Shown here: positions 1 to 11,367 of the stretch, piece after piece
Position numbering within the stretch: the first letter of the stretch is position 1
How the letters are laid out: each line of letters opens with the position of its first letter
Assembly (NCBI GenBank): GCA_028275505.1
Contig: JAPWUP010000011.1
Coordinates: 1-45,894, forward strand
Length of the DNA: 45,894 nt
Source of the DNA: Bryobacteraceae bacterium
GTDB lineage: Bacteria; Acidobacteriota; Terriglobia; Bryobacterales; Bryobacteraceae
Reading direction: 5' to 3'
Program-made: the position numbers and the translations under genes
The notes under the pieces: generated by a model
Database searches by the model: none
What the model was told of the DNA's origin: nothing
The model's input: only the letters and a program-made list of their open reading frames with translations

Positions 1-392
1 GTCCCGATACCTTCAGCTTTGCCGGGCAGGCGTACGGGTATGATCTGGTCGGGCATTACTACGGGCCGGACGGCATCCCCGGCACCGCGGACGACATCTG
101 GTACGGCGAGTCCAATCCGGGCAATGATCTCGTTCTCGTGAACCGTCTCTGGTTCGCGGGACTGGGGGCCGCGTTCTCGGTATCCGATCCTGCCGATCTG
201 CCCTATGCCTTGTGGTGGATCACGCAGCAAGATTATCCGTTCGGGTGGGGAACTTATTTGATTTGGATTGATGGCCAGTTGGTCACGGCCAGCGCTGGCG
301 CGTCCCTGGTTCCCGAGCCGGCAACCGCTGCGCTGATTGGCCTCGGCCTCGCCGGCCTGCTTTGCCTGCGGCGCTACCGCAAGGCGGCCTGA
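1..392 (+). CDS. PEP-CTERM surface protein, C-terminal fragment
   Basis: The reading frame is open from the left edge (first full codon at position 3) to a TGA at 390-392, so only the last 129 residues or so are present and the true start lies outside the window. The C-terminus has the full PEP-CTERM layout: a V-P-E-P motif, a hydrophobic Ala/Leu/Gly helix, then a basic R-R-Y-R-K tail. Known PEP-CTERM proteins are exported and processed by an exosortase, often in exopolysaccharide-producing Gram-negatives. Further upstream a D-G-I-P-G-T-A-D-D stretch resembles an acidic calcium-binding loop, which is suggestive only. No exosortase is in the window. The O-antigen-ligase-like gene that follows fits an exopolysaccharide setting. 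The sorting signal is clear; the function of the mature part cannot be told. Confidence 0.85.
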   Translation, partial: PDTFSFAGQAYGYDLVGHYYGPDGIPGTADDIWYGESNPGNDLVLVNRLWFAGLGAAFSVSDPADLPYALWWITQQDYPFGWGTYLIWIDGQLVTASAGASLVPEPATAALIGLGLAGLLCLRRYRKAA

Positions 393-408
393 CCGGAAAA
401 GTTCTGAA

Positions 409-439
409 GGCGGCCCGGGGGCGGGAATCCTGGGCCGCC
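409..439 (+). terminator. GC-rich hairpin after the PEP-CTERM gene
   Basis: GGCGGCCC (409-416) and GGGCCGCC (432-439) form a perfect 8-bp stem with a 15-nt loop, starting 17 nt after the stop codon. No T-run follows, so it is only a terminator-like structure; it could instead stabilise the mRNA 3' end. Confidence 0.4.
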
Positions 440-471
440 GCTCCTCTGCCACCCTCTGATCCAGTTCCTCA

Positions 472-1800
472 GTGAACGCTGCTTGTGTCGTCCTCCTCTC
501 GCTGGCCCTCGGCCATGCGGCCTTGCATGATGCGGGCGTTGAACCCAACGACTGGGGCGTCTCGCTGGTCGCGGTCGGATTGTGCGGAATCCTGTGCTGG
601 TCTCGCGCGCGATTGCCGTGGCCGCGTGGATGGACAACTTGGCTGCCTCTGAGCCTCCTGGCGTGGGCATCCCTCGCCTTGCTGCCTTTGCCCAACGCCC
701 TTGTCAGGCTGCTGGCGCCCGCGCGCGCCGCGGCGCTGGATGGCCTCACCGCCATCGCGGGACCGTGGAGCTGGGCCGCGTTGAGCGCCAAGCCCGCGGC
801 AACCTTGGAAAAGGTGATCGGGCTGGCGGGCTGCATCCTCGTTTTCTGGCTCATGGCGGATCTGGCCGGGCGGCTCGATGACTATCCGTGGGCTGTCGCG
901 TGGCCCTTGCTGATCCTTGCAGGCTTCGAGGCGGTTCTGGGGCTCATTCAGGCGTATGCGCCCGGCGGCGATCGCATAGCCACGGGAACTTGGGTCAACC
1001 GCAACCACTACTGCGGCTTTCTCGAGCTGTGCCTGCCGTTCGCGCTGGCTTACGGCGTAGCGGTTCTCGGGCGCGGGCGATCGCGCCACGGCGTAAGCCT
1101 GCGCATGGCGCTGGCGGCCTGCGGCCTGTTCACGATCGCCGCCCTGATCCTGCTGGCGATTCTGCACTCGTTCTCGCGGATGGGTTTCGTGGCCGCTCTG
1201 GTCTCGATGTTCATCATGGGGGCGGCCGCGCTGGGCAGCGGCGAAGCGCCCGCATGGAGACGCCGGCTGGGACCGGCACTCATCGGCTTGCTCGTGCTCC
1301 TCGCTTTCATCTTCTTGCCCCCGGACAAGCTGATCGAGCGCTTCGGCCACATGGCCGCCACGGAGGAAATCTCGGCCGACGTCCGCATTCAGATCTGGCG
1401 CGATACGCTCGAGCTGGTGCGGGCGCAGCCTGTGGCTGGCAGCGGCCTGGGCGCGTACGAATCGGCGCTCATGCGGCACAAGCTCGCGGCGCCTTTGTAC
1501 ACGGTGGATTTCGCCCACAACGACTATTTGCAGTTGGCGGCCGAGCTCGGCGTTTTCGGGCTGGCTGTCGTCGTGACCCTCGCTGCGCTTTGCCTGCGGT
1601 CGGCCTGGCGAGCCGCGCGCCGCAGTCACTGGGAGGAGGAGCGCTGGCGGGCGCTGGGCGCGCTGGGCGGCCTGTCGGCGCTGGCCCTGCACAGTTTCGT
1701 GGACTTCAACCTTTACATTCCGGCGAATGCAATGACACTGGCCTGGGTAGCAGGGATCGCGATCGCCCGTTCCGTGTCTACGGGCGCCGCTCGAGCCTGA
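472..1800 (+). CDS. O-antigen ligase / Wzy-type polymerase family membrane protein
   Basis: This 442-residue polytopic protein has about ten or more hydrophobic segments. The family signature is visible as W-V-N-R-N-H-Y at residues 174-180 in the loop before a hydrophobic run, and a second conserved patch A-H-N-D-Y at 348-352 followed by L-x-E-L-G. The WaaL/Wzy_C family joins or polymerises undecaprenyl-linked glycans on the periplasmic face of the inner membrane. The start is a GTG at 472, 79 nt after the PEP-CTERM gene; no in-frame ATG fits better. The neighbouring PEP-CTERM gene suggests an exopolysaccharide polymerase/ligase role rather than classical LPS ligation, but the sequence alone does not separate these. 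The last 23 nt overlap the convergent gene on the other strand. Confidence 0.82.
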   Translation: MNAACVVLLSLALGHAALHDAGVEPNDWGVSLVAVGLCGILCWSRARLPWPRGWTTWLPLSLLAWASLALLPLPNALVRLLAPARAAALDGLTAIAGPWSWAALSAKPAATLEKVIGLAGCILVFWLMADLAGRLDDYPWAVAWPLLILAGFEAVLGLIQAYAPGGDRIATGTWVNRNHYCGFLELCLPFALAYGVAVLGRGRSRHGVSLRMALAACGLFTIAALILLAILHSFSRMGFVAALVSMFIMGAAALGSGEAPAWRRRLGPALIGLLVLLAFIFLPPDKLIERFGHMAATEEISADVRIQIWRDTLELVRAQPVAGSGLGAYESALMRHKLAAPLYTVDFAHNDYLQLAAELGVFGLAVVVTLAALCLRSAWRAARRSHWEEERWRALGALGGLSALALHSFVDFNLYIPANAMTLAWVAGIAIARSVSTGAARA

Positions 1801-2914
1801 CCGCGTCCACCCAGGCGGCGCCACGGATCTTGTTGTCGAACTTGCGGGACGGGCGGCGGCAAAGCTGGATGGCGGCAAGCAGGGTGCGCGGCGCGACGAC
1901 TTCTGCTTCCACGAATTGCCAGTCGGTGGTTCCCGTGATGTGCTGAGTCTCGGCGAGGACGCGGTTGCCGCTGCCGGTTTCGCTGAGGCGCAGAAAAAGG
2001 CCCTGATCGGTCGTCAGATCCTGCGAAGCAATCCACGCGGACAGACGGTAGCGCCCGGCGGGCACAACCACCAGTTGCGAGACGTGCGAGTAATCGAAAT
2101 TGGCCGTGCCGGGAAAGCTCAGCTTGAGCGATGCCCGACCCTCCCGCGCCCGGGCCGGATCGCGAACCGCCTGCACGCCTTCCAGCGGGCGGATGCGCCA
2201 GTCCAGCGGCGAGCCGCTCGGCTCGTTTTCAAAGCTGCCGTTGTAAACCAGGTTGCGCACGGGATAATCGCCGGCCCGCGGCCCCAGCCAGGCAACCCAG
2301 GTTGCGAGCGCCTCATGGTACTCGGCCTTGCGCAGAAGCAGCTCCAGATAGGCGGCCGCCAGCTCGTCGTTGGCGAGGCGGTGCTCGCAGAGGGAGTGCC
2401 AGGCGGCGCGGGCGCGACCGGCATCGCCGCTTTGCAGAAGGAAGCGGAAATGCGAGCGGGCGGCGCGCGGGTTCCTGGCGAGCTGGGGCAGCAGCTCATC
2501 GAAGGGAATCAGGCGGTCGGTGTAGTAGAAGATGATCGCGTCATAGTCGGGGACCAGCTCGAGGATGCGAAGCATGTGGGGCAGGGCAGTGCGGGCTTCG
2601 CCGACGCGGATGTGAAATCCCGCAGCGCGCATCAACACGGGCGGAATGTTGGGACCGAGCTCGACGGCGCGCCGGAAGCACAGGCGGGCTTCGGCGATCT
2701 TGCCGGTCTCGGCGAGGGCTTCGCCGAGATCGCACCAGCGGTAGGGATTGGCAGGGTCGGAGCGCAGCAGGCGCCGTGCGAGAGCTTCGGCTTGCGTGGC
2801 GGGCTGTTCCGTGAGGTCGGGGTAGGTCTCTGGCGGGCGCAGGGCGAGCCAGAGCCCGCCGCCGGCGACGGCCAGGGCGAGCAGCGCGCGGAGCAGAAAC
2901 CCTGCGTCTCGCAC
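1778..2914 (-). CDS. Membrane-anchored TPR protein with C-terminal carbohydrate-binding-like domain
   Basis: The 378-residue product starts with a GTG at 2914 preceded by a GAGG-like ribosome site. Residues 6-25 form a single hydrophobic N-terminal segment (signal anchor). Tetratricopeptide-like helices follow from about residue 40 to 150, including a stretch in which W-C-D-L-G-E-A-L and A-E-A-R-L-C-F-R-R-A-V-E-L-G-P fit the TPR consensus. From about residue 220 an N-x-x-Y-N-G-S-F-E-N opening, followed by beta-rich sequence (Y-S-H-V-S-Q-L-V, Y-R-L-S-A-W-I), resembles CBM4/9-type jelly-roll modules. TPR proteins are common in exosortase/exopolysaccharide loci, where they may organise assembly. 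The 3' end overlaps the O-antigen-ligase-like gene tail to tail. The exact role is unknown. Confidence 0.7.
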   Translation of the reverse strand: MRDAGFLLRALLALAVAGGGLWLALRPPETYPDLTEQPATQAEALARRLLRSDPANPYRWCDLGEALAETGKIAEARLCFRRAVELGPNIPPVLMRAAGFHIRVGEARTALPHMLRILELVPDYDAIIFYYTDRLIPFDELLPQLARNPRAARSHFRFLLQSGDAGRARAAWHSLCEHRLANDELAAAYLELLLRKAEYHEALATWVAWLGPRAGDYPVRNLVYNGSFENEPSGSPLDWRIRPLEGVQAVRDPARAREGRASLKLSFPGTANFDYSHVSQLVVVPAGRYRLSAWIASQDLTTDQGLFLRLSETGSGNRVLAETQHITGTTDWQFVEAEVVAPRTLLAAIQLCRRPSRKFDNKIRGAAWVDAVRLERRP

Positions 2915-2962
2915 TTGCGAACCTCGCGTGTTATTTTATCGTCTCCACCCTCAAATTAGGGA

Positions 2963-2991
2963 TTGAAAAAGCAGAAAAGCAGGGGTAAATT
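2963..2991 (+). promoter_or_regulatory. Predicted sigma70-type promoter for the peptide-modification gene train
   Basis: TTGAAA (2963-2968), a 17-nt spacer and TAAATT (2986-2991) match a housekeeping promoter at 5/6 and 4/6 positions. It lies in the 183-nt gap between the divergent TPR gene and the first propeller gene, about 105 nt upstream of that gene's preferred start. This leaves an untranslated leader of about 100 nt. Confidence 0.55.
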
Positions 2992-3097
2992 GTAACGTGA
3001 GCGCGCCGCGGCAGAGCGATTTTTGTTGGACATCGTAAGACATTCGTTCTTGCGATTGAGCCACGGCGAAGCACGGACAGGAAACCGGGAGGTCGAG

Positions 3098-4786
3098 ATG
3101 AGCAGAGGGCATCCGAAGTGGGTCGGATTCATTCCGGTAGCAGTGGTTCTTGCGGCGGGGATTGTTCTGGTGACGGCGCAGGCGCCGGGACAGGGCGCGA
3201 TGGCGCCGCGTTTCCCGATTGTTCGCGATTGGAGCCACAGGTATCTGGCTTACGGGAACGCTTCGTTCCGGGCCGCGACGCTGAGTCAGCTCCAGCGCGA
3301 TCCGCGGCTGGCGGCGGCCTGGGTGCAGCGCAACGTGATCGGCGCCCTGGCGTCGGCTTCGGCCCCGGGCCGGCAGCCGTGGCGGCGCAATTCCCTCACG
3401 CTGAAGCGCGACTGGGCGGTGTCGCTGGGGAACGTCGATACTTCGACCCCAGTGCCCAAAGAGCACTTCCCGGCGATGTGGGGGGCGAGCTTCACCAACC
3501 CGGATTGTGCCAATGATTTTGTGGTCTTTGGCATCCGGGCGGGTCAGGCGACCGGCCAGGCGAACATCGTGGCGTTCAACAATCTCTACCTCTACACCAC
3601 CTGCTCGGCGCCGGTTCCCCAGACAATGTGGGCTTACTATGTGGGCGGCGGCGGGAGTGATCCCGATCAGGTCAGAACGTCCCCGGTGCTTTCGCTCGAC
3701 GGGAAAGAGGTGGCGTTCGTCGAGGACCGGGACAAGGGTTCAGGCGGCGCTTACTTCCACGTGCTCAAGTGGGTAGCGGGGCAGGGTACCATTGGAAGCC
3801 CCGCCACTCCCGGCTCCGGGGGCTCTTCCGTGCGCAGCGTGAAGTATTCCGATTCAGGCAACCTGCGCTCGTCGCCCTTCGTGGATTACTGGAACAACGT
3901 CGCCTTCGTCGGGGCGGACGATGGGAAGCTGTACGCCATCGGGCCGGTGTTCAATGCCACTTCCAATCCAGCGGTTCTCGGCTTCGTGGAGGTCGGGAGC
4001 GTAGGGGCTCATCTAACCAGCCCGGTCATGGATCCCAACGAGAACAGGATTTTCATCTCAGATGGAAGCTCGCTCCACTCCTACCTTGTATCCTACGGCA
4101 CGAACAGCGTAACATTCAGCGACCCCAAAACCTACCTCATCAGTGGTGACGCCGAGGCTATTCAGGACGCTGCGCTCGTGGACGTGGACCGGCGGCGCGT
4201 CTTTTGGTTCGCTCGCAAAACCTTTTTAACTGCTCTGGCGATCGAGACCGACTATAGCTTTACGTCCACGGCGACCAAGACTGCGTCCATCGGCCAGAGC
4301 TCCGAGACGACCATCCGCGCCGGAGCGTTCGATGACGACCATTACTCCGGAAAGGGCGGGCAGCTGCACGTGTGCGGCAAAGCCTCCGACAGCGACCAGC
4401 CCCGACTTTACACGTTTGGATTCTTCCAGAGCGGGAACGAATGGGTCTGGAATAACTCGACTTACTACGTCAACACCATCGCTACGACGGCTGGCGAGTG
4501 CTCGCCGCTGACGACGTTCAAGAGCGACAAAGACCGCCTGTTCCTCGGCTTCGAGGGCGGCGTGATCCAGATGTGGGAACTGCCTGTGACTTCTTCTGCC
4601 GACCGGGCCGACCAATCGGCCTCCGGTTACAACGGTGGCTCGGCCGGCATCATCGTGGACAACCGGAGCTCCACCGCCGAGGCCAACAACATCTACTTCC
4701 AGACGGTGCTCGCATCGAGCGCCTGTGCCGAGAACGGAACCAACAAAGTCTGCGCCGTCAAGCTGACCCAAAGCGGGCTGCAATAG
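3098..4786 (+). CDS. Secreted beta-propeller-like protein, copy 1
   Basis: I chose the ATG at 3098 (562 residues) over an in-frame start at 3023 because a GGGAGG ribosome site precedes it and it opens directly into a signal peptide (about residues 1-28, hydrophobic V-A-V-V-L-A-A-G-I-V-L-V). The mature N-terminus carries R-F-P-I-V-R-D-W-S-H-R-Y-L, shared with the second copy. The middle has propeller-like strand units such as S-S-P-F-V-D-Y-W-N-N-V-A-F-V-G-A-D-D-G-K-L-Y-A-I and T-S-P-V-M-D-P-x-x-N-R-I-F, as in PQQ/WD-type folds. Cysteines at conserved points (D-C-A-N-D-F, E-C-S-P-L-T and a C-terminal C-A-E-N-G...V-C-A-V-K-L pair) suggest disulfides in an exported protein. A 55-codon peptide gene starts 25 nt downstream. 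No catalytic motif was recognised; a binding or scaffold role is inferred. Confidence 0.72.
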   Translation: MSRGHPKWVGFIPVAVVLAAGIVLVTAQAPGQGAMAPRFPIVRDWSHRYLAYGNASFRAATLSQLQRDPRLAAAWVQRNVIGALASASAPGRQPWRRNSLTLKRDWAVSLGNVDTSTPVPKEHFPAMWGASFTNPDCANDFVVFGIRAGQATGQANIVAFNNLYLYTTCSAPVPQTMWAYYVGGGGSDPDQVRTSPVLSLDGKEVAFVEDRDKGSGGAYFHVLKWVAGQGTIGSPATPGSGGSSVRSVKYSDSGNLRSSPFVDYWNNVAFVGADDGKLYAIGPVFNATSNPAVLGFVEVGSVGAHLTSPVMDPNENRIFISDGSSLHSYLVSYGTNSVTFSDPKTYLISGDAEAIQDAALVDVDRRRVFWFARKTFLTALAIETDYSFTSTATKTASIGQSSETTIRAGAFDDDHYSGKGGQLHVCGKASDSDQPRLYTFGFFQSGNEWVWNNSTYYVNTIATTAGECSPLTTFKSDKDRLFLGFEGGVIQMWELPVTSSADRADQSASGYNGGSAGIIVDNRSSTAEANNIYFQTVLASSACAENGTNKVCAVKLTQSGLQ

Positions 4787-4811
4787 AATCATCAGCAAGG
4801 AGACTCGCGAT

Positions 4812-4979
4812 ATGGCCTCCGAGAAACACGTTCCGAAAGTGCCGGCGGCGCGCGGGCCGCGCCGGCCCTACCACAAGCCCGCCTTCCAGTGCGAGCAGGT
4901 CTTTGAAACCGCCGCCGTGCGCTGCGGGAAGATCTATCCCCGGTACGCGCAGTGCAAGAGCGTGACAAAGACCTCCTGA
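4812..4979 (+). CDS. 55-residue Cys-containing peptide, candidate RiPP precursor
   Basis: The ATG at 4812 has an AAGGAG ribosome site (4797-4802) at 9 nt spacing, and the frame ends at TGA 4977-4979. The first half is basic and Pro/Arg/Lys-rich (leader-like). It is followed by K-P-A-F-Q-C-E-Q-V-F-E-T and A-V-R-C-G-K, with cysteines at residues 27, 38 and 48. A Y/H-K-P-x-F...F-E-T...C-G-K pattern is, from memory, typical of small peptides near PqqD genes in Acidobacteria; this was not checked. The gene lies between the two propeller paralogues and in the same direction as the PqqD, radical SAM, kinase and nucleotidyltransferase genes, which makes it the natural substrate candidate. It has no classical signal peptide and no double-Gly leader. 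It could instead be a small zinc-binding protein, since three Cys and some His are available. Confidence 0.68.
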   Translation: MASEKHVPKVPAARGPRRPYHKPAFQCEQVFETAAVRCGKIYPRYAQCKSVTKTS

Positions 4980-5010
4980 CCCCGCTCGGTCCACCGTCAG
5001 GGCGGGGGTC
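4978..5010 (+). terminator. Imperfect hairpin after the 55-residue peptide gene
   Basis: GACCCCGC (4978-4985) can pair with GCGGGGGTC (5002-5010) with one bulged G, and a small GGT/ACC hairpin can form inside the loop. There is no T-run. It could partly terminate or protect the peptide mRNA before the next gene, which starts 149 nt later. The prediction is weak. Confidence 0.3.
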
Positions 5011-5159
5011 TGAAGGCACTGGATAGCGCGGCCGCACCTGCCTCTTGAGCTCACTTCCTGTTATTCTGTGAAGTTTGATTTCCCGTAAGCGGACTGCCCC
5101 CGCGGGCCCCACCGGCTCGCTAATCTCTGCCTGGGCAGACTCCGCCACACAGAACGAGG

Positions 5160-6791
5160 ATGTTGAGGCGCAGGAAAGTTGTCGTTTCATCCGGTTTTGC
5201 CACTTTGGCATTTTTCGTCGCGCTCAAGGCCAAGGGCCATGCTCAAAACGGGGCGCCGGCGCGGTTCCCCATCGTTCGCGATTGGAGCCACAGGTACTTG
5301 GTGCACGGGAACGGCTCGTTTCGCGCGCCGACGCCGAGCCGGCTCGAGCGCGATCCGCGCCTGATCATGGCTTGGCTTCAGCGCAGCCTGATCGGGGCAA
5401 TGGGGCAAGGCCTGCCGCCGGCCAGGCGGTCCGGGCGGCGCGATGGAGCCGGGGTGAAGCGCGACTGGGCGGTGTCGCTGGGCGATGGTGTGCTGACGCC
5501 GGGTCCGGCCGAAGCTTACCCCGCCATGTACGGCGGAGACATCGCCAGGGGTGATTGCGCGAACGATTTCGTCGTCTTCGGCATCAACGCCAAACCGGCG
5601 ACGAATCAGGCCAACATTGCAGCGTTTTACAACCTGTACGATAACTGCCGCAGCGGGCCCGTCCCGCAAGTCCTGTGGGCCTATCGTGTGGGCACGGGGC
5701 CGGTGCGGACATCCCCGGTACTGTCGCTAAACGGCCAGGAAGTAGCATTCGTGGAGAACAGCGCCAACGGCGCGGCCTTTCACGTGCTGAGCTGGGCGCG
5801 AGGGCAGGGCAGCATCGCCCAGCCGGCGGTCCCCGTTAATGAATCCGCGCTTCGTACGCTGACTTACTCGCGCGCGCCCAGCACCCGCTCATCACCCTTC
5901 GTGGATTATTGGAACAATGTGGCCTTCGTGGGCGCCGATGACGGCATCTTGTACGCGATCGGCCCCGTTTTCGGCACCAGCCAGCCATTGGCGATAAAGG
6001 CTGCGGTAATTGCCAGTTCAGGAAGGATTCTCACCAGCCCCGTGATGGATCCCGGGGCCAACCGGGTTTTTGTCTCGGACGGGAATACCCTGTATTGCTA
6101 TTCCTACGACGGCTCTTTCCGTTTGCAGGGTTCCTACTCCACTGGCGCCGCAGGCACGGAAGCGGTGCAGGATGCCGCGTTAGTGGACGTGGACCGGCAA
6201 AGGATTTTCTGGTTCACGAACGCGGGATCCGAGACCGCGCTGGTGATCGAAACCGACTATAACTGCGGTGCGGTCAAGACCGCCTTCATTGCGCGGAACT
6301 CGGACACGGTGCTGCGTGCCGGCGCCTTTGACAACAAACACTACGAGCTCGGAGGCCGGGGTGGACAACTGCTGCTTTGCGGCATGCGTGACAACATGTC
6401 GGGCCACCCCGCGCTCTACGCTTTTGAGTTCGACGCCCAAGGGAGTTGGAACACAACTCCCCGCTACGTGATCCGGCTCGCCAACAAAACGGGCTCCTGC
6501 TCGCCCCTTACCAGCTTTATGAGCGGCGGCCAGGATCGGCTTTTCTTCGGCTTCAGCGGAACGAACGAGGTCCAGATGTGGCATCTGCCGATTACCGGGA
6601 CGAGCTGGGGTCCAAGTGCGAGGGCACCAGGCTATGCCGGCGGCTCGGGCGGCATCACCGTGGATAATCGCAGCGCGGATCCGGCCCGGAACAACATCTA
6701 TTTCCAGACATTGGAGCGTTCGCCCGCCTGCGCCCAGAATGGCGTGCCGAAAGTCTGCGCCGTCAAACTTAGTCAAAGCGCGCTCGAATAA
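5160..6791 (+). CDS. Secreted beta-propeller-like protein, copy 2
   Basis: This 543-residue paralogue of the gene at 3098 is alignable by eye along its whole length. It starts with R-R-R-K plus a hydrophobic segment and A-Q-N-G-A (signal peptide about 1-28), then R-F-P-I-V-R-D-W-S-H-R-Y-L. Shared blocks include L-K-R-D-W-A-V-S-L-G in copy 1 versus V-K-R-D-W-A-V-S-L-G here, C-A-N-D-F-V-V-F-G-I, the Y-W-N-N-V-A-F-V-G-A-D-D-G propeller strand, and the terminal C-A-Q-N-G...V-C-A-V-K-L. The ATG at 5160 follows a short A-C-G-A-G-G ribosome site. The gap from the peptide gene is 180 nt, so it may also have its own promoter, although I could not pick a convincing one. The peptidase gene starts 30 nt after the stop. 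The function is unknown; secretion and a propeller fold are inferred. Confidence 0.72.
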   Translation: MLRRRKVVVSSGFATLAFFVALKAKGHAQNGAPARFPIVRDWSHRYLVHGNGSFRAPTPSRLERDPRLIMAWLQRSLIGAMGQGLPPARRSGRRDGAGVKRDWAVSLGDGVLTPGPAEAYPAMYGGDIARGDCANDFVVFGINAKPATNQANIAAFYNLYDNCRSGPVPQVLWAYRVGTGPVRTSPVLSLNGQEVAFVENSANGAAFHVLSWARGQGSIAQPAVPVNESALRTLTYSRAPSTRSSPFVDYWNNVAFVGADDGILYAIGPVFGTSQPLAIKAAVIASSGRILTSPVMDPGANRVFVSDGNTLYCYSYDGSFRLQGSYSTGAAGTEAVQDAALVDVDRQRIFWFTNAGSETALVIETDYNCGAVKTAFIARNSDTVLRAGAFDNKHYELGGRGGQLLLCGMRDNMSGHPALYAFEFDAQGSWNTTPRYVIRLANKTGSCSPLTSFMSGGQDRLFFGFSGTNEVQMWHLPITGTSWGPSARAPGYAGGSGGITVDNRSADPARNNIYFQTLERSPACAQNGVPKVCAVKLSQSALE

Positions 6792-6821
6792 TTATCGCGC
6801 ACGGCGGCGAGCGTCAGCGCA

Positions 6822-7265
6822 ATGACAAGCGGCTTCGGTTCACCAGCCGCAACGCAGGTTTGCCGGGAGGAGGCAGCAGAGTTCCGCGTCACTGGCGGGA
6901 GCATGTTTCCGGCGCTGCGCCCGGGTGACTGCCTGGTGGTCCGGCGCAGCGACGTCGCAACTCTCAGGCCTGGCGACCTGGTTGTGTTCCTCGGACCGGA
7001 CCGGCGAATCTGCACGCATCGGGTGAGGGGATTCGAAAATGGGTGCCCCGTAACCGGGGGCGACGCTGCGCCCGCCGCGGATCCTCCCCTGGAGCCTCAT
7101 GAGATCCTCGGGGTGGTGGTTGAAGTCAGGCGAGGCCGCAGGTCGTTCGTGCCTCGCCGCGTGCCGCCCTTCTGGGAGCGGGCCATCGCGCAGTTGTGTC
7201 GCCGCTCCGTTCTTTTCCACCGCCTGGCTCTCAAACTCTGGGCACTTTGCAGGCCGAATCCATGA
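6822..7265 (+). CDS. S24/S26-type serine peptidase, soluble signal-peptidase-like
   Basis: This 147-residue protein has the S26 catalytic block G-G-S-M-F-P-A-L-R-P-G-D with Ser27, then L-R-P-G-D-L-V-V-F. It continues with C-T-H-R-V (His66) and G-G-D-A (Asp81), in the spacing of the Ser-His-Asp arrangement of SipW/Sec11-type signal peptidases rather than the Ser-Lys dyad of classical LepB. There is no clear N-terminal transmembrane anchor; only the C-terminal 20-25 residues are moderately hydrophobic. It sits 30 nt after propeller copy 2 and overlaps the kinase gene by ATGA (7262-7265), so it is translationally coupled to the modification enzymes. It may cleave the leader of the nearby 55-residue peptide or act on the propeller proteins. 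A LexA-like role is unlikely because no DNA-binding domain is present. Confidence 0.72.
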   Translation: MTSGFGSPAATQVCREEAAEFRVTGGSMFPALRPGDCLVVRRSDVATLRPGDLVVFLGPDRRICTHRVRGFENGCPVTGGDAAPAADPPLEPHEILGVVVEVRRGRRSFVPRRVPPFWERAIAQLCRRSVLFHRLALKLWALCRPNP

Positions 7266-8071
7266 CCGGCTCCGACGCACCTTCGCGGCTGCTGATCGAA
7301 ATCGCCGGGCTGGGGGTGGCGCTGAACTGCGAGGATGAGGAGTTCGCCCGTCTCGTAGCCGGCGCGTACTCGAGCTTTCTTGCGCTCCCCGGCACCCCTG
7401 TGGCCTGCGAGTTCGCCGTGCATATTGCGCCGCCACGCGGGACCGATCCCGACGAAGACGTCTGCGTGAGCCTCGCGGACGGCAAGTGGCAGATCCGTCG
7501 CGGCGACTTCGAAGCCGAGTTTGATCCGCGCGCCCGGCAAGGGTGGGTGCGGTACACCGCCAATCCGTACTCGGTGGACACAGTGCTGCGCATCGTGCAC
7601 ACGCTGCTGGCGGCGGACGCGGGTGGGTTTCTCGTGCATGCTGCGGGCGCGATTCTCAATGGCCGCGGGCTGATCCTGGCCGGGGCATCGGGAGCGGGCA
7701 AAACGACGATGTGCCGGCTGGCGCCGCCGGACGCTGTTCTGTTGAGCGATGAGATCTGTTACGTGATGCGGCACGGTGAGGAGTATCTGGTTCACGGCAC
7801 CCCGTTCGCGGGGGAGCTGGGGATACCGGGCGTCAAGGTGTCGGCGCCGGCTGCCGTGCTCTACCTGCTGGCCAGAGGCAATCAGCACCGGCTTGTGCCG
7901 CTCAAGCCTGCCGAGGCGGCACGCCAACTGCTGCGGTGTATCCTGTTCTTCGCCGAGGACGCCGAGCTGGCCGGCAAGGTCTTTAACTCGGCCTGCGAGT
8001 TCGTGCGACGCACGCCTGTGTACCGGCTTGAGTTCCGGCCCGAACCTGGCGTGTGGGAGTTGCTGAGATGA
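7262..8071 (+). CDS. HprK-related P-loop kinase, RiPP-cluster type
   Basis: The ATG at 7262 overlaps the peptidase stop (ATGA) and gives 269 residues; an in-frame start 66 nt upstream would lie inside the peptidase gene and is less likely. A Walker A motif G-A-S-G-A-G-K-T spans residues 141-148, preceded by V-H-A-A-G-A-I-L, and is followed by L-L-S-D-E as a Walker B-like acidic site. These fit the HPr-kinase C-terminal fold. HprK-like kinases of this size occur in peptide-modification clusters; in paeninodin-type lasso clusters such a kinase phosphorylates the precursor's C-terminal Ser. The local peptide ends in K-T-S, which offers a comparable acceptor, but this is inference. There is no evidence for a true HPr/PTS role here: no ptsH or ptsI is nearby. 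Confidence 0.7.
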   Translation: MTGSDAPSRLLIEIAGLGVALNCEDEEFARLVAGAYSSFLALPGTPVACEFAVHIAPPRGTDPDEDVCVSLADGKWQIRRGDFEAEFDPRARQGWVRYTANPYSVDTVLRIVHTLLAADAGGFLVHAAGAILNGRGLILAGASGAGKTTMCRLAPPDAVLLSDEICYVMRHGEEYLVHGTPFAGELGIPGVKVSAPAAVLYLLARGNQHRLVPLKPAEAARQLLRCILFFAEDAELAGKVFNSACEFVRRTPVYRLEFRPEPGVWELLR

Positions 8072-8367
8072 GCGAACTTTACGTTGCGCGTCATCCTGCG
8101 GCTGCGTGGCGACGATTGGAGGACGAAGTGATCGTCATGGCGGCGCAGGAGTCCTGGCTGTTCACTTTGAACGAGGTTGCGGCTGAGATCTGGGAAGCGG
8201 CGGACGGGCGGACGCCGCTGGCCTCGATCGTCCGGGACCGCATCTGCGAGAAGTTCGAGGTGGATTTCGAACAGGCGTACCGCGACGCCGAGGAGCTGCT
8301 GCGCGCGCTGGCGGAACGCGGCATTGTCCTGCTTTCGGAAACGCCGCTGGAGGCAGGCGCCCCATGA
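8068..8367 (+). CDS. PqqD-like peptide-binding (RRE) protein
   Basis: The 99-residue reading starts at the ATG at 8068, which overlaps the kinase stop (ATGA); an in-frame ATG at 8053 is inside the kinase gene. The sequence fits the PqqD fold: an early beta region with E-V-I-V-M, then L-F-T-L-N-E-V-A-A-E-I-W-E-A-A-D-G, then a helical C-terminus with V-D-x-x-x-x-Y-R-D-A-E-E-L-L-R-A-L. PqqD-type RRE domains bind leader peptides and present them to radical SAM enzymes. The gene overlaps the radical SAM gene by ATGA, a classic partner arrangement. No pqqA, pqqB, pqqC or pqqE set is nearby, so PQQ synthesis is not indicated. Confidence 0.82.
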   Translation: MSELYVARHPAAAWRRLEDEVIVMAAQESWLFTLNEVAAEIWEAADGRTPLASIVRDRICEKFEVDFEQAYRDAEELLRALAERGIVLLSETPLEAGAP

Positions 8368-9419
8368 GCGGGCTGATGGAGCGGGTCACCCAGAAGGCGC
8401 TGGCGCTCGGCGTGCCGCTCAGCGTGCATCTCGACCTGACCTGGCGCTGCCATCTGAGTTGCATTCACTGCTACCTGACTGAGCGCAACGGACGTGAACT
8501 CACGACGGCGCAGCTCGTGCGGCTGCTGGAGGAGCTGGCCGAGTGCGGCACGCTGTTTTTGCTGGTGAGCGGCGGCGAGGTCTTCCTGCGTCCGGATTTC
8601 TTCGAGATCGTGGAGGCGGCACGCGAGCTGGCCTTCAGTGTACGCGTCAAGACCAGCGGCACGCTGCTCGATGACGAGGCTGCCCGCCGGCTGGCCCGTT
8701 TGCACGTGGCGGGCGTGGACGTCTCGCTGTACTCGCATCGCCCGGAGGTGCACGATGCGGTGACGCGGCTAGAGGGATCGTTCGCGCGCACGGTGGAGGC
8801 GGTCAGGCGGCTGGTGGCGCACGGCGTCAAGGTGCGAGTCGTGCAGGTGCTGATGCGGATGGCAGAAGGCGAATATTCGCGAGTCCGCGAGCTGGCCGCG
8901 GAGCTTGGGGCCGAGTATTCTTTGGATCCCACGGTCACTCCGCGGCTCGATGGCAGCCGTAGCGTGGTCAGATTGAACGCATCGCATGCTGCATGGCGCA
9001 AGGTCTTTGAGGATCCGGAACTGGATGCGAGGCCCGAGCACTGCCCGCTTTCGCCCGAGCCGCAGGAGGCAGCGCAGACGGCGCCGGAGTGGGATTCGCT
9101 GCCGTGCAGTGCCGGCCATACCTCGTGTTACATCTCGCCGAGCGGCGACGTTTATCCGTGCGTGCAGTTGCCGCTCGCGTTGGGCAACGTGACGGAGCGA
9201 CCGTTTCGTGAGATCTGGGCCGATTCCCCGGCAGCGCGTCGCGTGCGCTCGATTCGGGTGGCAGATCTTCCGATTTGCCGGAGTTGCGAGTTCCTCAACC
9301 AGTGCTCACGGTGCCCGGGCCTGGCGTATCTGGAGGGGGATCTGACCGGGCCTTCCCGTCTGAACTGTGAGCAAGTTTTCGCGCGCACGGGCCGGCGCCC
9401 CGCGCCGCTGGCGGAGTGA
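8364..9419 (+). CDS. Radical SAM/SPASM peptide-modifying enzyme
   Basis: The 351-residue protein has the radical SAM motif C29-x3-C33-x2-C36 (C-H-L-S-C-I-H-C) followed by a G-G-E-type SAM site (V-S-G-G-E-V-F). A C-terminal SPASM domain has cysteines at 248, 255, 266, 305, 308, 314, 317 and about 335, enough for two auxiliary [4Fe-4S] clusters; the V-Y-P-C and C-R-S-C motifs are typical. Such enzymes (PqqE and AlbA types) form C-C or thioether cross-links in peptides. The ATGA overlap with the PqqD-like gene indicates a dedicated pair. An anaerobic sulfatase-maturating enzyme is the main alternative, given the sulfatases elsewhere in the window, but the PqqD pairing and distance argue against it. 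Confidence 0.85.
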   Translation: MSGLMERVTQKALALGVPLSVHLDLTWRCHLSCIHCYLTERNGRELTTAQLVRLLEELAECGTLFLLVSGGEVFLRPDFFEIVEAARELAFSVRVKTSGTLLDDEAARRLARLHVAGVDVSLYSHRPEVHDAVTRLEGSFARTVEAVRRLVAHGVKVRVVQVLMRMAEGEYSRVRELAAELGAEYSLDPTVTPRLDGSRSVVRLNASHAAWRKVFEDPELDARPEHCPLSPEPQEAAQTAPEWDSLPCSAGHTSCYISPSGDVYPCVQLPLALGNVTERPFREIWADSPAARRVRSIRVADLPICRSCEFLNQCSRCPGLAYLEGDLTGPSRLNCEQVFARTGRRPAPLAE

Positions 9420-9422
9420 GTC

Positions 9423-10628
9423 GTGCAGTTTCTCCGCGATTGCTTGACGCCCGAGCTTCGGGTGCTGACCGAGCTGGTGCGTCCCTCGCCCGAGTTGGGC
9501 GTGCTGCGGCGCCTGGTTTCCGAAGTTTCCGCCTGGGAAAGCGTGTTGGCTGCGGCGCGGCGGCACGGCGTTGCGCCCCTGGCTTACCGGCGTTTGCGCG
9601 AGCATTGTGCGGACTGTGTTCCCGCGGCGGTGCTGCAGAGGTTGCGGGAGCATTACCGACACAACGCCATTCGCAATCTGGCCTTGATGCGCGAACTCGG
9701 CGTCCTGCTCGACGCCATGCGCGGGAAGGGCGTAAAAATCATCCCGCTGCGCGGGCCCGTGATGGCTGCGAGGCTTTACGGCGATGCGGCTTTGCGCGAG
9801 TGCGCCGATCTGGACGTTCTCGTGCGGCGGGACGAACTGGAAGCGGTGTGCGGTGCGCTGCGCGACCGCGGATTCCGTCCGGTGCGCGAGCTGGATGCAG
9901 CCCAGCGAAGGCTCGAATTGCGCGACGGTTGCGAGGTCTGCTATGGCCGCGAGGATGGCCTTTACATCGAGCCGCATTGGGAGCTGATGCCGAAGACCTA
10001 TGCCTGGGGCTTGCGCGCCGAGGACGTCTGGGGCCAGGCAGTGCCGGTGGCGCTTGAAGGGTTGAGCATTCTTCAGCCTTCGCCAGAGCATTCCTTTGTC
10101 CTGCTCTGCGCCCATGCGGCGAAACACGGCTGGGAGACCCTTCGCGACGTGGCGGACGTGGCGTGGTTCCTGCACTCGGCAGCTTTCGATGCAGCGCGGG
10201 TGCGTGCGTGGGCGGAGAGAACGCGTTGCCGGCTCGCGGTGGTGGCGTCGTGCGCGCTGGCCGAAGCTTTGCTTGGCACCCGGGCGCCGAAGGAACTTCA
10301 GCAGGCCGACCGCCGCGTCCGCAGCTTGTGCAACCGGGTCCTGGAAAGCTGGCGCCGCGAGCAGAGCGGTCCTTCGGAGCTGCGCGATTGGATCCTGCGC
10401 TGGCGCGTGCTGGATGGGGCGCCGAACAAACTGCGTTTTGCCTTTCGGGCTTTGCTGGCGCCCAGCGTGAATGATCTTGAGCTGGTACGCCTGCCCCGTC
10501 CGCTCTTCCCGCTTTACTATCCCCTCCACGCGGCGCGCATGGCGGTCCGGTACGGTTTGCGACCGCTCGTGCGCCGGACGCTGGCCTGTCTCAGGGCCAC
10601 CCTGCCGGCCAGGATTGCGGAGCGCTGA
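9423..10628 (+). CDS. Nucleotidyltransferase family protein (NTP_transf_5-like)
   Basis: The 401-residue product starts with GTG at 9423, 3 nt after the radical SAM stop. Residues around 100-135 show the family pattern K-G-V-K-I-I-P-L-R-G-P followed by L-Y-G-D-A-A-L-R and C-A-D-L-D-V-L-V, where Asp129 and Asp131 are the likely metal-binding pair of a polymerase-beta-like nucleotidyltransferase. This family is often found with HprK-like kinases and PqqD-like proteins in lasso-peptide and related clusters, though its substrate is mostly unknown. It closes the gene train; a hairpin with a T-run follows about 115 nt downstream. Its involvement in peptide tailoring is inferred from position. Confidence 0.72.
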   Translation: MQFLRDCLTPELRVLTELVRPSPELGVLRRLVSEVSAWESVLAAARRHGVAPLAYRRLREHCADCVPAAVLQRLREHYRHNAIRNLALMRELGVLLDAMRGKGVKIIPLRGPVMAARLYGDAALRECADLDVLVRRDELEAVCGALRDRGFRPVRELDAAQRRLELRDGCEVCYGREDGLYIEPHWELMPKTYAWGLRAEDVWGQAVPVALEGLSILQPSPEHSFVLLCAHAAKHGWETLRDVADVAWFLHSAAFDAARVRAWAERTRCRLAVVASCALAEALLGTRAPKELQQADRRVRSLCNRVLESWRREQSGPSELRDWILRWRVLDGAPNKLRFAFRALLAPSVNDLELVRLPRPLFPLYYPLHAARMAVRYGLRPLVRRTLACLRATLPARIAER

Positions 10629-10782: not shown

Positions 10783-11367
10783 TCAATTCCCGCACGGCCT
10801 GAGGACGTCGCGGTCCACCTCCGCGGCCACTGCCCTCTGAAGGATCTCCACGCCCACCACGACGCGCCAAGTGTTCTTGAAGCGCAGCAGAATGCCTTCC
10901 ACGCCTTGCAGCGGTCCCCGCTCCACGCGCACGCGCTGGCCCTCACGCAAAATCGGCCAGGGTTCAACGGGCACACCCGAGCGGACCATGACCTGCAAGG
11001 ACTGGATTTCCTCGTCCCGCACGGGCGCCAGGCGATGATTGAAGGTGACGATGGAGCGGACGCCCGGCGTCCTCAGGACCTGGATGCGCTGGATTTCCCG
11101 AAAACGGGCGAAAACGTAGGTGGGAAAAAGCGGCAGTTCGAGCACCTTGACGCGGTCGGACCACTGGCGCCGCGAACGGTAAAGCGGCAGGAAGGTCTCG
11201 AAATTGTTGTGGGAAAGGGCCCGGGCTACCGCCTTTTCATGCTGATGGCGGACCTGGACGGCGTACCAATGAAGCGGCTCGGTGGATTCGGAAAAAGTCA
11301 CCTGGAGCGGCAAAGAAACCGGCGTAATGGCGCTTGATGAGCAAGCAGTCCGTTCCTCCACAGACAT
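10783..11367 (-). CDS. NusG paralogue of the RfaH/UpxY type
   Basis: This 194-residue protein has a 30-residue N-terminal extension, then a NusG N-terminal (NGN) domain opening with H-W-Y-A-V-Q-V-R (33-40) and including P-L-F-P-T-Y-V-F-A-R-F (79-89). A KOW-type domain follows at about 138-165 (G-Q-R-V-R-V-x-x-G-P-L-Q-G-V-E-G-I-L). Specialised NusG paralogues bind RNA polymerase and promote read-through of long surface-polysaccharide operons. The ATG at 11367 is preceded by a GGGGGA ribosome site. Unlike the usual arrangement, no same-strand operon follows; the gene ends head-on against the peptide-modification operon. It is too divergent from housekeeping NusG to be that gene, and no secE or ribosomal protein genes are nearby. 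Confidence 0.82.
   Translation of the reverse strand: MSVEERTACSSSAITPVSLPLQVTFSESTEPLHWYAVQVRHQHEKAVARALSHNNFETFLPLYRSRRQWSDRVKVLELPLFPTYVFARFREIQRIQVLRTPGVRSIVTFNHRLAPVRDEEIQSLQVMVRSGVPVEPWPILREGQRVRVERGPLQGVEGILLRFKNTWRVVVGVEILQRAVAAEVDRDVLRPCGN

Follow-up and report, generated by a model that had tools for sequence, protein, structure and literature searches.

A cassette of eight genes on contig JAPWUP010000011.1 of a Bryobacteraceae bacterium (GCA_028275505.1) very probably makes a small, chemically modified peptide, as judged from the proteins that it encodes. The window, i.e. the whole stretch of DNA analysed here, covers positions 1-45,894 of this contig (45,894 nucleotides), and the cassette occupies positions 3098-10628 on the + strand. 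It comprises a 55-residue precursor peptide, two secreted beta-propeller proteins, an S26-type peptidase, an HprK-like kinase, a discrete PqqD-type recognition element (RRE), a radical SAM/SPASM enzyme and a nucleotidyltransferase (NTase). The original prediction for this DNA, a system for a ribosomally synthesized and post-translationally modified peptide (RiPP) acting on a Cys peptide, is strongly supported, and the RRE, the radical SAM enzyme and the kinase very probably act on the peptide. Direct support comes from the gene content, its conservation, intact catalytic residues, the predicted kinase and propeller folds, and a statistical link between peptide and propellers. The same gene set recurs in more than 100 other bacterial genomes, often beside secreted propeller proteins.

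Taken as a whole, the following pathway is the probable one. The RRE would bind the precursor through its YxKP leader and hand it over to the enzymes. Phosphorylation of the C-terminal Ser would fall to the HprK-like kinase, and the resulting phosphate may be extended or decorated by the NTase. The radical SAM/SPASM enzyme would introduce cross-links, most likely thioethers, into the Cys-containing core, and the soluble S26-type peptidase is predicted to cut after Phe-Glu-Thr (FET) and to free a cationic core some 22 residues long. In the clade to which this genome belongs, the finished peptide may then act outside the cytoplasm, together with the neighbouring secreted propellers. We infer the RRE binding, the sites of phosphorylation and cleavage, and the order of the steps from characterised relatives.

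The precursor peptide

The system has its conserved centre in the 55-residue peptide, judging by the homologues. A search of one genome per species with a DNA pattern (E..[FY]ET.A.xCGK) retrieved at least 119 stretches; the homologue counts below (116, 111 or 87) come from the matches listed. YxKP, which lies outside the pattern, was present in 116 of the 119 listed stretches; two of the other three can be recognised as homologues, and the third is probably a chance match. The homologues share the layout YxKP...FETxALxCGK...C......S-COOH. The Tyr and Pro of YxKP, neither of which was in the pattern, occur in 85 and 86 of 87 distinct homologues. Equally outside the pattern, Ser is the last residue in 114/116 homologues, and the second Cys stands at -8 from the C-terminal end in 103/111. 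The core is 22 residues long in 68 and 25 residues long in 26 of the 111 homologues, with a mean net charge of +3.3. Asp or Glu occurs at core positions 7, 8 and 9 in 0, 0 and 1 of these cores, Ser at core position 3 in none (0/111), and Trp and Tyr, present in two and nine cores respectively, are not conserved. FET belonged to the search pattern. Variants with FEV or FVT in its place were found by homology (L161, L162, L164, L166, L168, L170 and L172), and in lasso leaders of Acidobacteriaceae, Ile or Val has been reported for the penultimate Thr (PMC10368454). The original prediction was right about the Cys peptide itself, but had overlooked two features: the FET cleavage motif and the near-invariant Ser at the C-terminus, which gives the strongest hint at the action of the kinase.

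The 55-residue reading frame is a real gene rather than a chance one. Loci recovered via homology to the radical SAM enzyme or the propellers alone have a homologous peptide at the same position. The peptide pattern was found in 42 of the 399 genomes of the window's class (50 listed matches), compared with 0 for a reversed-pattern control. Moreover, a second copy of the peptide gene, on contig C96 of the same assembly, differs at 4, 5 and 13 sites in the three codon positions, i.e. mostly at the third. Neither the peptide nor its relatives matched a Pfam or NCBIfam family. The hosts, among the matches listed, are 74 Acidobacteriota, 22 Elusimicrobiota, 11 Pseudomonadota and a few others. Nearly all are metagenome-assembled genomes, so that binning errors may lie behind some of the rarer phyla; the carriers do include an isolate, Granulicella mallensis X5P3 (L090).

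The modifying enzymes

Among the S24/S26-like proteins, the S26 peptidase most resembles archaeal-type signal peptidase I (TIGR02228, E 1e-11, below cut-off). Its Ser27, His66 and Asp81 are invariant in every sequence aligned at these positions. The S26 proteins of the cassettes differ from an ordinary signal peptidase in that they have no clear transmembrane helix (top 19-residue hydropathy about 1.6; 0.85 for the protein in the window).

The HprK-like kinase had no significant Pfam match, and its NCBIfam matches, all ScmC/HprK-related, stayed below cut-off (ScmC, E 1e-12). Its AlphaFold model, built with 45 aligned homologues, has a mean confidence (pLDDT) of 95 and a PEPCK/HprK-type fold (Z about 15 over 237 residues). 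HprK is missing from the best 50 rows of the fold list, which are filled by PEPCK, a member of the same superfamily as HprK; this is no evidence against kinship with HprK. His126, the Walker A Lys147, Asp163 and Glu164 are 99-100% conserved.

The RRE matches PF05402 (PqqD, E 1e-16), and its nearest solved structure is the lasso RRE TbiB1 (E 8e-7). The radical SAM enzyme matches PF04055 (Radical_SAM, 6e-23) and PF13186 (SPASM, 3e-13), and all ten Cys of its CxxxCxxC motif and SPASM domain are 99-100% conserved over 71 sequences. Its nearest solved structures are SkfB and PqqE, followed by 5v1q, named 'Radical SAM'. Because the enzyme is nearest to the thioether-forming SkfB and to PqqE, and because two Cys are conserved in the core, a thioether would be its likeliest product. 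The NTase matches PF14907 (NTP_transf_5, E 7e-58), with Arg125, Asp129 and Asp131 invariant, and lies close to only a minority of the homologous loci among the matches listed, in line with an accessory role.

The cassette in the window and in other genomes

All eight open reading frames named in the original prediction were found on the + strand, in the order and at the positions given there (Table 1). Three ATGA overlaps, all real, join the genes for the peptidase, the kinase, the RRE and the radical SAM enzyme, and the NTase gene starts with GTG, 3 bases past the radical SAM stop codon. Directly downstream of the cassette, at 10783-11367 on the - strand, the window encodes a NusG-domain protein (PF02357, E 1e-19).

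Table 1. Positions of the cassette genes and of the predicted elements of the precursor within the window.
Feature	Position	Strand	Details
Propeller 1	3098..4786	+	562 aa, secreted beta-propeller protein; hydrophobic N-terminal segment read as signal peptide
Precursor peptide gene	4812..4979	+	55 aa, MASEKHVPKVPAARGPRRPYHKPAFQCEQVFETAAVRCGKIYPRYAQCKSVTKTS
YHKPAF, putative RRE-binding leader motif	4869..4886	+	lasso/LPP type YxxPx[L/V/F]
FET, predicted leader end and S26 recognition	4902..4910	+	cut expected after Thr, as in LPP leaders
Predicted 22-residue core	4911..4976	+	AAVRCGKIYPRYAQCKSVTKTS; Cys codons 4923-4925 and 4953-4955
C-terminal Ser codon, predicted HprK-like kinase phosphorylation site	4974..4976	+	conservation and PadeK-type precedent
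Propeller 2	5160..6791	+	543 aa, secreted beta-propeller protein
S26-type (SipW/SEC11-like) peptidase, predicted cytoplasmic leader peptidase	6822..7265	+	Ser27/His66/Asp81
HprK-like peptide kinase	7262..8071	+	His126, Walker A GASGAGKT, Asp163-Glu164
Discrete PqqD-type RRE	8068..8367	+	PF05402
Radical SAM/SPASM enzyme	8364..9419	+	C29xxxC33xxC36; SPASM Cys 248, 266, 305, 308, 314, 317, 335
NTP_transf_5 NTase, accessory, predicted phospho-Ser decoration	9423..10628	+	PF14907

Across the homologous loci, the peptide, peptidase, kinase, RRE and radical SAM genes stay together. Enzymes that had lost the small peptide would have spoken against the system as first proposed; the homologous loci retain it. 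The order is peptide-S26-HprK-RRE-rSAM (rSAM, radical SAM) in most loci of Acidobacteriota and Pseudomonadota, HprK-RRE-peptide-S26-rSAM in Elusimicrobia, and (NTase)-HprK-RRE-rSAM-peptide-(S26) in a third branch, from Acidobacteriota.

Within the assembly itself, window positions 1-4981, i.e. the upstream region, propeller 1 and the peptide, are duplicated at 92% identity on contig C96 (L011 499-5454). There, the S26 gene follows directly after the peptide, without propeller 2. This difference reflects either a recent gain or loss of a propeller, or two strains mixed in the assembly, of which the contamination is 3.4%. Another complete cassette lies on contig C108, which also holds a 91% identical copy of part of the NusG-domain region downstream of the cassette in the window (10783-11367). 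Two other genomes of the genus gave no radical SAM or propeller match at the cut-offs used, which points to a patchy distribution.

Some loci have neighbours of their own. At L013 1786-8312 (G020 C531), a diverged copy of the cassette, with a split kinase and a stop inside the radical SAM gene, adjoins a second, lasso-like set, which comprises a further PqqD-type RRE, a methyltransferase, and genes resembling those for HPr kinase and asparagine synthetase. This arrangement recalls the co-localisation of lasso clusters with those for linear polyphosphorylated peptides (LPPs) reported in Bacillota. In the Elusimicrobia loci, pseudopilin-like and FN3 proteins, not the propeller of the window, are encoded beside the cassette. 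Three pseudopilin-like genes adjoin it in 8 or 9 of these loci (including L039, L040, L049, L086, L095 and L151); the two that were scanned have an N_methyl motif, and one pseudopilin-like protein, of 833 aa, has carboxypeptidase-regulatory-like domains.

The secreted propellers

The two propellers of the window are 55% identical to each other and belong to a conserved family of proteins of about 550-1100 aa encoded beside the peptide. They matched no Pfam or NCBIfam family. A search of genome contigs gave no propeller relatives, whereas a whole-genome search did. The model of propeller 2 (pLDDT 82; predicted template modelling score 0.87) is a beta-propeller and aligns with a designed eight-bladed propeller at a Z of about 30 and a root mean square deviation of 2.2 over 316 residues. 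Its fold list, with designed propellers, YxaL, tetrathionate hydrolase and BamB, indicates the fold and not the function.

Among the 399 genomes of the class, peptide pattern and propeller occur together in 28, against 4.5 expected. The pattern is lacking in 15 propeller genomes, but seven of these have a cassette with the FEV or FVT variant. Variants included, 35/43 propeller genomes carry the peptide (Fisher P < 1e-20, a value for related genomes that are not independent). The association of peptide and propeller is thus beyond chance, but it is limited to a clade. A propeller-family gene lies at most 5.5 kb from the peptide in at least 41 of 116 loci and an ABC-2 permease in at least 15, with both in none; the two counts are lower bounds because many loci end short. 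The permease type is nested within the propeller type, with two changes on the radical SAM tree, which suggests one or two replacements. A mutual exclusion arising from many independent events was rejected, as the tree needs only these two changes.

In the third branch, seven loci (L053, L060, L069, L077, L082, L115 and L152) have in common a large secreted protein encoded next to the peptide. Two of them, L053 and L152, were scanned, and there this protein has PQQ_2/BamB-type propeller repeats together with Disaggr_repeat or CBM96 domains, so that propellers recur in a second branch. We nevertheless rejected the propellers as part of the cassette core, since the Elusimicrobia and one subclade with the ABC-2 permease lack them. 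Thus, the inclusion of the propellers in the original prediction stands as an association, not as core membership, and its suggestion that the peptide is delivered to, or displayed on, the propellers found no direct support.

Comparison with known systems

The closest relatives in design are the LPPs of Bacillota, described by Popov et al. in May 2026 (PMC13381572). Their SipW-like S26 enzyme LppS requires the RRE to cut after FET, for which F-3, E-2 and T-1 matter, and their kinase acts on core Ser3 (PMC13381572). The cassette resembles them in its SipW-like S26 peptidase with Ser-His-Asp, discrete RRE, HprK-like kinase, NTP transferase, lack of a cyclase, and YxxP leader ending in FET. This LPP biochemistry favours FET as the cleavage site; an AxA-like S26 site before the first Cys was rejected, with Arg at -1 in the window. 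LPPs were described as restricted to Bacillota, whereas the cassette occurs in Acidobacteriota, Elusimicrobiota and Pseudomonadota. LPP precursors have 35-200 aa and highly variable C termini, in contrast to the near-invariant C-terminal Ser here, and the LPP paper mentions no radical SAM enzyme (PMC13381572), while the cassette has one, along with two conserved Cys. From the LPP leader consensus YxxPxVLxHQxIxFETxxS, YxxP and FET are present but VLxHQ is absent, and the LPP leader is two residues longer between Tyr and FET. As core position 3 is never Ser, the LPP phosphorylation site cannot be used here. Finally, LPP clusters have an MsbA-like exporter, of which there is none at 3098-10628; an ABC ATPase with an ABC-2 permease appears only in one subclade of the relatives. 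We do not file the cassette as an LPP cluster because of the differences in consensus leader, Ser3 and exporter. Our best model is that it would work like an LPP system, supplemented by a radical SAM step and using a C-terminal site as in paeninodin.

Such a site is known from paeninodin-type lasso peptides. The kinases PadeK, ThcoK and SyanK phosphorylate the C-terminal Ser before leader removal, and this Ser was called an 'extremely conserved site' in kinase clusters (PMC9266682; for the PadeK-type target also PMC10368454). PsmN acts on the phospho-Ser, and the NTase homologue of pseudomycoidin is required for hexose addition there (PMC9266682). The cassette shares with these clusters the HprK-like kinase, the C-terminal Ser, the lasso-type RRE with the YxxPx[L/V/F] leader motif (PMC13381572, PMC10368454) and, as in some of them, the NTase. 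Instead of a cyclase, a B2 peptidase and a ring-forming Asp or Glu, it has a Cys core and a radical SAM enzyme. An asparagine-synthetase-like cyclase is absent from the window region, and a phmmer search started from the L013 enzyme retrieved no further copy in the cassette loci covered. The statement of the original prediction that lasso cyclase, PQQ genes and ABC exporter are lacking holds for this copy of the cassette, in the case of PQQ at the level of equivalogs.

The predicted core chemistry has its likeness in sactipeptide-type systems (SkfB, subtilosin AlbA), with a SPASM enzyme that has all cluster Cys and a Cys-containing core, SkfB being the nearest solved structure. Unlike these, the cassette has a kinase, an NTase and an S26 peptidase, and its RRE is a separate protein. 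In quinohemoprotein amine dehydrogenase, the gamma subunit QhpC, cross-linked by a radical SAM enzyme, becomes part of the periplasmic enzyme (PMC7876137). QhpABCDEFG is similar in that the operon for a periplasmic enzyme includes the gene of a small Cys peptide, yet its protease QhpE is subtilisin-like and not of the S26 type, and it has a Trp-derived quinone cofactor (CTQ), a haem subunit and an ABC transporter (PMC7876137), none of which was identified here. No cytochrome was among the genes identified in 3098-10628, where no CXXCH search was made. The SynChlorMet cassette (ScmC kinase, ScmD PqqD and ScmE/F radical SAM; NCBIfam) likewise combines an HprK-related kinase, a PqqD-like protein and a radical SAM/SPASM enzyme, but all cassette members score far below its equivalog cut-offs. 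The same is true for the pyrroloquinoline quinone (PQQ) and mycofactocin equivalogs (mycofactocin maturase 141.5/265 bits, PqqE 108.5/381, PqqD 21.9/46).

Alternative explanations

The mature peptide could also be a free secreted molecule, antibacterial or signalling, with the propellers as independent surface or periplasmic binders serving as receptor, sponge or self-protection. We regard this as possible, though not likely. The core is short, cationic and contains Cys, and the loci with an ABC-2 permease and no propeller, as well as the Elusimicrobia, would fit a peptide that works by itself. On the other hand, the propeller-type loci have no exporter, no transporter or immunity gene is common to all loci, and core length and end pattern are strongly conserved across phyla. 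Many antimicrobial RiPPs lack such conservation. That the modified peptide is instead a subunit or prosthetic group bound to the secreted propeller, as QhpC is in its enzyme (PMC7876137), seems rather unlikely, even with propeller genes flanking the peptide in the window and adjoining it in many loci, the peptide in 35/43 propeller genomes, and PQQ_2/BamB-repeat secreted proteins beside it in another radical SAM branch. It is opposed by the lack of a conserved Trp or Tyr in the core and of any visible redox partner gene, by ABC-type and Elusimicrobia loci that have the peptide and no propeller, and by the absence here of a visible export route for a cytoplasmic peptide. Its fullest form, in which a cross-linked and C-terminally phosphorylated RiPP from a neighbouring gene completes the extracytoplasmic proteins of a large propeller family, is slightly more doubtful still.

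An improbable option is that the peptide is a mere scaffold for a small PQQ- or mycofactocin-like cofactor used by the propellers. PqqE and mycofactocin maturase models are among the best matches of the radical SAM enzyme, the RRE and radical SAM architecture would suit it, and in fold class the propellers agree with PQQ-type repeats; yet all equivalog models remain far below cut-off, conservation reaches the very end of the peptide, with its second Cys and C-terminal Ser, and the operon has no further cofactor genes. It is very improbable that the gene set is a chance neighbourhood in which the S26 enzyme serves the propellers as an ordinary signal peptidase. The propeller N-termini are hydrophobic and signal-peptide-like, and the S26 family includes signal peptidases, but this enzyme accompanies peptide and kinase in the propeller-free loci of the Elusimicrobia and the ABC type, has no clear membrane anchor, and keeps its place in a gene order conserved across phyla. 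Least credible of all is a lasso peptide cluster with its cyclase elsewhere in the genome, despite the lasso-type RRE, the YxxPx motif and the pairing of a C-terminal Ser with an HprK-like kinase. Core positions 7 and 8 never have Asp or Glu and position 9 has one in 1/111, an asparagine-synthetase-like gene occurs, among the cassette loci searched, only at L013, in the separate neighbouring gene set, and S26 replaces B2. We rejected this explanation, as ring acceptor and cyclase are both absent.

Several points weigh against the RRE-guided pathway that we favour. The propeller statistic is inflated by related genomes, and the Elusimicrobia have the cassette without that propeller. The propeller-type cassette has no exporter. 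The kinase ends its motif with Asp-Glu, whereas the characterised lasso kinases have Asp-Asp. The absence of the LPP Ser3 means that the kinase target is taken from the lasso branch.

Implications

The original prediction called the system undescribed. The toolkit of S26 peptidase, RRE, HprK-like kinase and NTase, together with the FET leader, has been published for the LPPs (PMC13381572), but for the radical SAM version outside Bacillota our literature searches, which covered open-licence PMC papers, found no description. One compact and widespread cassette would combine three chemistries, i.e. S26 leader cleavage, C-terminal Ser phosphorylation and radical SAM/SPASM modification, a combination not found in the literature searched. 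The LPP idea of 2026 would be extended past Bacillota, to Acidobacteriota and Elusimicrobiota. The pathway makes sharp predictions: a cut after FET, a phosphate on the last Ser, and cross-links at the Cys. With a candidate partner, the secreted propeller, encoded next door, the cassette may offer a route to the role of such phosphorylated peptides.

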